Source of the DNA: a virus
DNA length: 43,627 nt
Virus record (IMG/VR): IMGVR_UViG_3300023435_000037
Location: 1 to 43,627 of that record
Strand: one strand, 5' to 3'
Shown here piece by piece: positions 267 through 3,051 of the stretch. A model generated the notes under the pieces. It searched no databases and was not told the origin of the DNA. It saw only the letters and a program-made list of their open reading frames with translations. A program made the translations under genes and the position numbers. Numbering within the stretch: the stretch's first letter is position 1; each line of letters begins with the position of its first letter.

Positions 267-560
267 ATGGCAGGCAAGACAAGGCACAAGTTGATGTTAA
301 CGATCCCGCAGTACGCACAGAGCAATGCTACCAATTTCATAGCCTGCTACGGTATAGATCGTGCTGAGATCATAGCCAAGTTAACGCTTGAGAAGATCCG
401 AGCGTCAAAGAGATCCTTGATCAGACGCTATGGCAGGGACGAAGATATAAAATGTGTAAGGCATCCTAACTATAAGGCTATACGCAAGCCGCGATGTGCT
501 TGCCAAACATGCTGGGATCTGTATGAAATGAGGCACCCAAATGAAAAGAAAGATAAGTAA
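267..560 (+). CDS. hypothetical protein with C-terminal CxCxxC
   Basis: A 97-residue basic protein. The C-terminal third carries a cysteine set (C63 and a CACQTC motif near residues 77-82) that could hold one zinc ion, followed by WDLYEMRHP. The start ATG directly follows GGGAGGTGAC. The 3' end overlaps the next gene by 20 bases, in another frame. No known function; a small zinc-binding early protein is the best description. Confidence 0.65.
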   Translation: MAGKTRHKLMLTIPQYAQSNATNFIACYGIDRAEIIAKLTLEKIRASKRSLIRRYGRDEDIKCVRHPNYKAIRKPRCACQTCWDLYEMRHPNEKKDK

Positions 561-918
561 ACAACAGGAACAGATATATCGGATGCTGCATCATGGTTTT
601 AGCGGGTTGACTGTCAAGCAAGTGGCTGCGATGCTTAGCTTGACTCCGGCCTGTATAACGCACCACATGCGGCAGATGAAGAAGGTAGCTCCTCAGTTAT
701 TTCCGATATTGACTAAGAAGCAAGCTGATGTATATTATCTGTACGTGCACACCGGTCAGGCTATAAGTGACATAGCTGAAGTGTTAAATATAACCACGTA
801 CATAGTAAAGAACCGGATCTATGAGATGCGGCGTAAGGGCATGTTCATTCCTTGGATGCAGGGTAAGTGTATGCGATATCAACCTTGGATGGACTTTGAA
901 ATCAGATTGAAATTTTAA
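541..918 (+). CDS. tandem helix-turn-helix DNA-binding protein (paralogue 1)
   Basis: A 125-residue protein with two HTH-like segments. The first is at about residues 20-47 (LTVKQVAAMLSLTPACITHH), the second at about 72-98 (AISDIAEVLNITTYIVKNRI). Between them is a conserved VAPQLFPxLTKxQA block. The arrangement resembles LuxR/sigma-70 region 4-type HTHs, so a transcription regulator or sigma-like factor is plausible. It is clearly paralogous to the protein at 2626-3051: both have (I/L)TxxQxE near the start, K(V/I)APQLFP in the middle and end in KF. Both genes are followed by an intergenic segment with inverted repeats. The start lies inside the preceding gene. The DNA-binding role is inferred from the HTH pattern only. 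Confidence 0.75.
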   Translation: MKRKISKQQEQIYRMLHHGFSGLTVKQVAAMLSLTPACITHHMRQMKKVAPQLFPILTKKQADVYYLYVHTGQAISDIAEVLNITTYIVKNRIYEMRRKGMFIPWMQGKCMRYQPWMDFEIRLKF

Positions 919-1068: not shown

Positions 1069-1413
1069 ATGAAAAAGAAAAGAACATTGAACCAAACATG
1101 GACATTGTGCCTGAGAATGTGGAAGAAAGTTAAAAACAAATTTGCTAAAGATGGTAAGACAATCAGTGAACTCAAAAGAGAATGGCTCAGAGAGAACGGG
1201 TTTGTATATCGCGGCACTATCCAAGGTAATTGTTTTTTCTGTGATGCCTCACCAGTTACGTGCGATACTTGCCCAGGAAAACTGGTGGATCACAATTTTA
1301 TGTGTGCGACTGAGGAGTATGACTACGAAACAAAACCCGACCTTTTTTACAAAGAACTTTTGCGGTTGAACAGAATACGCAAAGCCAATAAGCCCAAAAG
1401 ACCGAGGAAGTGA
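1069..1413 (+). CDS. basic cysteine-rich hypothetical protein
   Basis: A 114-residue protein with a Lys-rich N-terminus, a central cysteine set (C49, C52, C58, C61: CFFCDASPVTCDTC) and a Lys/Arg/Pro-rich tail. Four cysteines in CxxC-x5-CxxC spacing suggest one structural zinc. The start is preceded by GGAGGTGACAT. It ends AGG AAG TGA, then C, then the next ATG, which is the stop/Shine-Dalgarno/start arrangement typical of this genome. Family not recognised. Confidence 0.65.
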   Translation: MKKKRTLNQTWTLCLRMWKKVKNKFAKDGKTISELKREWLRENGFVYRGTIQGNCFFCDASPVTCDTCPGKLVDHNFMCATEEYDYETKPDLFYKELLRLNRIRKANKPKRPRK

Positions 1414-1414
1414 C

Positions 1415-1777
1415 ATGGAGCTAGATACACCGATACAGTACGTACCTGGGGTTGGTCCGAAGCGTGCTAAGCTGTTTAACAAGCTTGGTGTTCATAACGT
1501 GGAGGATCTATTAGAGTATTTCCCACGCGACAATATTCTGCCTACTGATATCACAGATATATGTCAGCTTGAGGTAGGTAAGGACGCTCTGATCGTGGGT
1601 GAGATCAGTAAGGTAGAATACATAGGCCGAAGCAGGGTACCGATCATGAAGATCACTATCGATGACGGTACCGCTGAGTGTAAGGCTATATGGTTTAATG
1701 GAGGCTGGTTACGTCACCAGCTTAAGGTAGGCGGTATGGTGATGATGATGGGCAGGGTCGAGCTTGCGAGGAGGTGA
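1415..1777 (+). CDS. stand-alone RecG wedge-like (HhH plus OB-fold) protein
   Basis: A 120-residue protein that matches only the N-terminal wedge region of the RecG fork-reversal helicase. Residues about 6-37 read PIQYVPGVGPKRAKLFNKLG then VEDLLEYFPR, corresponding to RecG's GVG...KL..L.(I/L).TV.DLL..LP..Y. Residues about 55-116 fit the OB-fold that follows (DDGTAECKAIWFN, then LKVGGMVMMMGRVE; compare RecG SDGSG...FFN...G..V..YG). The helicase motor domains (about 500 residues) are absent, and the protein stops cleanly at LARR with the stop inside the next gene's Shine-Dalgarno, so this looks like a designed single-domain gene rather than a broken one. In RecG this region contacts branched DNA; binding of forks or Holliday junctions is inferred. 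Confidence 0.7.
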   Translation: MELDTPIQYVPGVGPKRAKLFNKLGVHNVEDLLEYFPRDNILPTDITDICQLEVGKDALIVGEISKVEYIGRSRVPIMKITIDDGTAECKAIWFNGGWLRHQLKVGGMVMMMGRVELARR

Positions 1778-1781
1778 CATG
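1769..1781 (+). promoter_or_regulatory. stop/Shine-Dalgarno/start cassette AGGAGGTGACATG
   Basis: The last codons of the upstream gene (AGG AGG TGA, giving Arg-Arg-stop) are at the same time an extended Shine-Dalgarno complementary to the 16S 3' end. The next ATG follows after one C. The same design occurs at 257-269, 1405-1417, 2076-2088 and 15911-15923 and, on the - strand, at about 42906-42915. It enforces translational coupling with an unusually short spacer. Confidence 0.8.
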
Positions 1782-2590: not shown

Positions 2591-2625
2591 TACTTCCAAT
2601 ATCAGTGTATTATAGAAAGGGAGAT

Positions 2626-3051
2626 ATGAAAGAAGTACAGATGACAACTTTAATAGGGTGCAGATTCATGGGACTGAGGCGACAGATCACAGAGAGGCAA
2701 GAGGAAGCAGTGCGGCTATGTCATCATAACTTCGAGGGGCTGACGATGACTGAAGCGGCTAAGAAGATGGGTATCAGCCAACCAGCTATTACTCATCTGT
2801 TAGCCAAGGTCAAGAAGATCGCACCTCAACTCTTCCCGATGATGACCAAGTTCCAGGCTCAATGTTATCACTATCTGTATTGTGATGGTTGGTCTCCCGC
2901 AGAAATCGCTGAATATATGGAGAGAACAGTATGGTCAGTATACAAAGCACTACAGGCATGTAAGTACAAAGGATTACCGTTACCCCAAGCACACGGTGAC
3001 ATCATGAACTACACAGAGGGTATGGATGGTGAAGTAATACATAAATTTTAA
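2626..3051 (+). CDS. tandem helix-turn-helix DNA-binding protein (paralogue 2)
   Basis: A 141-residue paralogue of the protein at 541-918, with HTH segments around residues 39-62 (LTMTEAAKKMGISQPAITHL) and 92-117 (SPAEIAEYMERTVWSVYKAL), and the shared K(V/I)APQLFPxxTKxQA block between. ATG 2626 follows AAAGGGAGAT. A GTG at 2605 and an ATG at 2668 are alternatives; the paralogue's N-terminus aligns just after 2668. Followed by the long inverted repeat at 3057-3156. Likely a phage transcription regulator; target unknown. Confidence 0.72.
   Translation: MKEVQMTTLIGCRFMGLRRQITERQEEAVRLCHHNFEGLTMTEAAKKMGISQPAITHLLAKVKKIAPQLFPMMTKFQAQCYHYLYCDGWSPAEIAEYMERTVWSVYKALQACKYKGLPLPQAHGDIMNYTEGMDGEVIHKF

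Follow-up and report, generated by a model that had tools for sequence, protein, structure and literature searches.

A free-standing fragment of the RecG wedge encoded in a variable slot of a phage genome

A RecG wedge homologue without the motor

The window analyzed here is an entire virus record (IMGVR_UViG_3300023435_000037; 43,627 bases). At positions 1415..1777 on the plus strand it carries an ORF that starts with ATG, encodes exactly 120 amino acids and, by Pfam, phmmer, NCBIfam and structure modeling, is a RecG wedge fragment made up of the HhH part, OB strands 1 to 4 and an Arg-Arg tail. It lies between the genes at 1069-1413 and 1779-2084, in a slot flanked by two genes for HTH proteins.

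To Pfam RecG_wedge (PF17191) the ORF scored 67 bits (E = 1.9e-18), well clear of the curated cut-off of 23 bits, while the next-best family reached 2.3e-5. The tRNA_anti-codon (PF01336), HHH_5 (PF14520) and DNA polymerase lambda fingers (PF10391) families all stayed under their own Pfam cut-offs. Among PDB sequences the top phmmer match was RecG 1gm5 (E = 9.8e-13). Five NCBIfam RecG equivalog models also matched (2.4e-20 to 9.4e-12), together with weaker models, and all of the RecG model matches were confined to the N-terminal part of the models. The product is therefore a true RecG wedge homologue, as the initial annotation had proposed from the protein's alignment to the wedge, and no other OB or HhH family fits it nearly as well.

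The same annotation had described the protein as lacking the helicase, which was borne out. No DEAD-box or motor domain was matched anywhere in the 43,627-base record, and full-length RecGs matched the window solely at this ORF, which stops at 120 amino acids and has neither of the two RecA-like motor domains of RecG nor its Walker A sequence (GDVGSGKT). As the gene is present without a single base difference in the sibling contig L001 (IMGVR_UViG_3300025669_000103), we discounted a frameshift in a single assembly. The gene thus encodes a piece of a known domain family that stands alone.

In the two phyla that we first searched, 475 of 767 genomes had a wedge match. Among the matches listed, the frames were long and RecG-sized with few exceptions, and frames shorter than 400 amino acids could be contig edges. 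The closest of the matches listed was 41% identical and came from the phylum to which the Eubacteriales MAG L072 belongs; no close donor recG was found in the bacterial genomes searched. Viral scans with the wedge or its alignments recovered just the sibling contig and one related phage, G012 (IMGVR_UViG_3300005663_000127).

Matches in a phage collection and in plasmids had given an initial lead to other viral wedges. Seven of the phage-collection loci (H1-H6 and H8) were rejected as free wedges since all are full-length RecG with GDVGSGKT, and an eighth (H9) was rejected as it is annotated recG. The phage-labelled records with full-length bacterial recG are MT835478, MT835471, MT836493, MT835769, MT836500, MT836784, OR846588 and CAKLQH020000003. 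In the last of these it sits among ordinary bacterial genes, so the phage-labelled recG records are probably bacterial contigs.

A truncated OB fold and a stop supplied from downstream

The PF17191 match spans profile positions 1-110 of 162, leaving about 52 positions absent. An AlphaFold2 model of the phage protein, built from a shallow alignment, had a mean pLDDT of 64, compared to 75 for a full bacterial wedge modeled in the same way as a control. It contained HhH helices at residues 15-23 and 29-35 and OB strands at 57-69, 78-83, 88-93 and 108-119, whereas the control had an additional strand region (125-129 and 132-135). By profile extent and model, the phage protein therefore consists of the HhH and OB strands 1 to 4 and falls short of the complete HhH and five-stranded OB of PF17191. 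The initial annotation's HhH/OB wedge was right as to the family and the presence of the HhH, but the wedge is incomplete, with four of the five OB strands.

In a fold search, the kind of structure comparison that had been proposed as a check, the closest PDB neighbor of the model was again 1gm5, although the statistics were modest (E = 0.017, probability 0.95) compared to those of the full bacterial wedge (6e-8). A search of a viral structure library found no match. Because OB strand 5 is missing and the confidence of the model is just moderate, stable folding of the 120-residue protein is not assured.

In the alignment, the best-conserved region is the HhH part (residues ~6-39; 1430..1531, +). 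It ends in PRDN where RecG has PR-x-Y-E-D-R, so this motif is not preserved: the Tyr that follows PR-x is present in all 33 aligned bacterial RecGs and is Asn in the phage protein. On the other hand, the W-F-N-G-G-W stretch (residues 93-98; 1691..1708, +) places F94 and W98 at F204 and Y208 of Thermotoga maritima RecG (TmRecG), the aromatic residues that stack on fork bases (PMC7889586). All of the 33 RecGs have Phe or Tyr at the F94 position, and 29 of them have an aromatic residue at the W98 position. Deinococcal RecGs have Trp in place of the Tyr, and a QPW motif with this Trp raises junction affinity (PMC7889586). Because the fork-contacting aromatics are retained, binding of branched DNA by the phage protein is plausible from its sequence; the missing strand 5 and the lost Tyr of the YEDR motif argue against treating the protein as simply equivalent to the RecG wedge.

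The start of the gene is conventional. A cassette, AGGAAGTGACATG (1405..1417, +), contains the end of gene 1069-1413, a Shine-Dalgarno sequence and the wedge start, with AGGAAGTGAC ahead of the ATG as a strong ribosome-binding site, and codon use in the gene is phage-like. At the other end, the final codons and stop (AGG AGG TGA) belong to AGGAGGTGACATG (1769..1781, +), the cassette that holds the ribosome-binding site and start of gene 1779-2084; read in frame with the wedge, the cassette gives Arg-Arg and the stop. AGGAGGTGACATG occurs 13 times in the window at up to 2 mismatches, compared to 1.2 occurrences expected, and none of the shuffles reached 13. This stop/Shine-Dalgarno/start cassette lies at gene junctions at 257, 1057, 1405, 1769, 2076, 5909, 15911 and other positions of the window. 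It is the reason that several genes terminate in Arg-Arg or Arg-Lys, as genes 1069-1413 and 1779-2084 likewise do.

The recG fragment thus continues into the start cassette of the following phage gene, and since that cassette supplies the stop, the stop was not inherited from a domain boundary in recG. The gene end had been called well formed; although the stop is genuine, it is donated by the downstream AGGAGGTGACATG cassette and interrupts the OB fold ahead of strand 5.

A variable slot and a shorter RecG-derived ORF in a related phage

The HTH proteins that border the slot, at 541..918 (+) and, on the opposite side, 2605..3051 (+), are related to one another, and the first is conserved in relatives. 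Both are sigma region 4-like and border a variable slot across the phage group. A terminase search yielded 35 related contigs, most of them at ~70% identity. The shared gene order, with local losses, is a small gene, HTH, the variable slot, HTH, a dNTase-like gene, polymerase, exonuclease, Sak4 and primase. Five related phages (G005, G008, G033, G018 and G024) have the slot and no wedge, and the sole RecG-like gene among the relatives compared is in G012. The neighbors of the wedge gene at 1069-2579 have no relative in the related contigs, and the wedge is therefore set among unique small genes.

The replication genes lie ~5 kb downstream of the wedge gene, which is outside their cluster. For recombination-linked replication the phage has a PolA-like polymerase, a PD-(D/E)XK exonuclease, the annealing protein Sak4 and endonuclease VII. 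In the sibling contig (1-4700), the last 160 bases of the window are linked to its first bases through ~4.5 kb that the window lacks. The window therefore lacks part of the phage genome, which is either circularly permuted or closed.

The RecG-derived ORF of G012 (L048 1507-1701, minus strand) encodes 64 amino acids and matches RecG_wedge at 2.2e-8 through the HhH part alone, with no OB and no aromatic contacts. Like the window wedge, it is free-standing, lies between the same two HTH genes and has lost the invariant Tyr40, although the replacement residue differs. Unlike the window wedge, it is inserted elsewhere in the slot and follows a leader hairpin. Compared to the empty sites in G018, G005 and G024, its HhH segment has been cleanly inserted and adds ~175 bases. 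The start codon lies within the 3' arm of the hairpin element, and the stop (TAA) comes from the resident sequence GTCCGATAA.

Covariation shows the hairpin to be real, with double-sided changes in 8 of 21 pairs across seven sequences; it had no match to Rfam in the sources searched. It is an intergenic element with a core of GCGATGGCC..GGCCAGAGC, tandem G-A mismatches and a variable outer stem, present in 1-3 copies per phage. These copies, all outside the window, lie on the minus strand at L063 5121-5192, L061 219-302, L067 18063-18148 and L032 4299-4370, and on the plus strand at L052 16280-16363 and 18782-18842. Several copies have an NTG start codon in the 3' arm, which in L032 and L052 opens short hydrophobic peptides. 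The element looks like a translation-start leader RNA. In two other phages (L052 and L067), the same hairpin starts a common 112-amino-acid ORF at the same position. This use of the 3' arm, together with the resident stop, argues from sequence that the G012 fragment is translated.

The G012 copy may be a separate capture. In the HhH, the window copy is identical to the G012 copy at 27 of 39 positions and to one bacterial RecG also at 27 of 39, and a tree of this part gave no useful branch support for one capture or two. For dN/dS between the two phage copies, synonymous sites were saturated; as the sole close copy is identical, selection on the free form is unmeasurable.

One possibility is that the wedge gene is a piece of recG gained by illegitimate recombination, perhaps expressed but functionless and on its way to being lost, and that the G012 ORF represents further decay or another accidental capture. 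A fold broken off ahead of OB strand 5, a stop that is an accidental read-in to the ribosome-binding site of the next gene, the loss of Tyr40 and the lack of a wedge at this locus in five relatives are all consistent with such a remnant. However, the frame is open, the start signal is strong, and the fork aromatics and the OB core pattern are kept despite ~41% identity to any sampled RecG. The phage genome is also compact, and in a second related phage a conserved leader element heads a RecG-derived ORF. We consider a remnant unlikely; its chance is nevertheless substantial because the OB is truncated, the G012 relative is HhH-only and selection cannot be measured.

A possible role at branched DNA

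We instead favor, at about even confidence, the view that the wedge gene is a captured 5' fragment of a bacterial recG encoding a non-catalytic DNA-binding protein, which tunes replication or occupies host RecG sites. The phage would have captured the 5' end of recG and retained it in a variable accessory slot, where it forms a small early gene of its own. This explanation is preferred because the RecG-wedge match is specific, RecG is the best fold match, F94 is kept and W98 stands in place of Tyr, and because the gene has its own start codon, a strong ribosome-binding site and phage-like codon use. It is further preferred because G012 carries a RecG-derived free module whose start and stop both lie within regulatory sequence of the phage, because the Tyr that is invariant in 33 of 33 RecGs is replaced in both phage copies, and because the phage encodes recombination proteins and endonuclease VII. 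The absence of strand 5, the lack of aromatics in the G012 copy and the location of the gene away from the replication genes count against it.

Most likely, the product would act early and in an accessory capacity, binding branched or duplex DNA while the phage replicates in a recombination-linked manner. The HhH and the aromatic edge of the open OB sheet could hold the branch or duplex of forks, D-loops and Holliday junctions. A bound wedge might then modulate the phage's own recombination-linked replication, carried out with the PolA-like polymerase, the PD-(D/E)XK exonuclease, Sak4 and endonuclease VII; alternatively, it might occupy sites that would otherwise be processed by host RecG.

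It could be speculated more specifically that the free wedge is an antagonist, competing with host RecG for forks, R-loops and junctions in a dominant-negative manner and so shielding phage forks and intermediates from remodeling. The protein is a motor-less copy of the part of RecG that confers branched-DNA specificity, with the base-stacking residues kept, and its gene lies in the early region, in a variable and possibly host-interaction slot. However, the binding of isolated wedges is weaker than that of full RecG (PMC7889586), so the wedge could compete only if highly expressed. The PADLOC models gave no match to the wedge protein, and with the nearest sampled RecG just 41% identical nothing points to a recent match to a particular host. 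We regard this role as improbable.

The phage protein can be compared with three known systems. It resembles the RecG wedge (PF17191, 1gm5) in HhH-OB order, sequence, fork-stacking aromatics and best PDB fold; it differs in lacking the motor, the TRG motif, OB strand 5 and the YEDR Tyr, and in being encoded alone by a phage. Artificial isolated wedges have been made from Escherichia coli RecG (59-135) and Deinococcus radiodurans RecG (158-235), and, as summarized in PMC7889586 citing Briggs et al. 2005, free wedges bind Holliday junctions, weakly and less than full RecG. These constructs are likewise motor-less but reach further downstream and presumably have a complete OB, whereas the phage protein begins at a more upstream point, with the HhH, and is cut off ahead of strand 5. 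Bacteriophage T4 UvsW, a phage functional analogue of RecG (PMC3778716), is a phage protein tied to RecG-type fork and junction processing, as the phage wedge may also be; UvsW is a full helicase, while the wedge has no ATPase. In the literature found, the RecG wedge was studied solely within RecG or as a laboratory construct.

A broader and rather doubtful proposition is that phages of this group repeatedly strip RecG of its motor and use the branch-recognition end (the HhH with an open OB, or the HhH alone) as a dedicated small protein to mask forks or junctions from host RecG or to steer their own recombination machinery, as natural motor-less RecG decoys. Natural free wedges, one short of strand 5 and one HhH-only, would show which pieces are sufficient for branched-DNA recognition in the cell, and they would offer ready-made RecG probes or inhibitors. 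The comparison of G012 with the empty sites illustrates how a fragment of a host gene can become a gene, by placement between a phage translation start and an existing stop.
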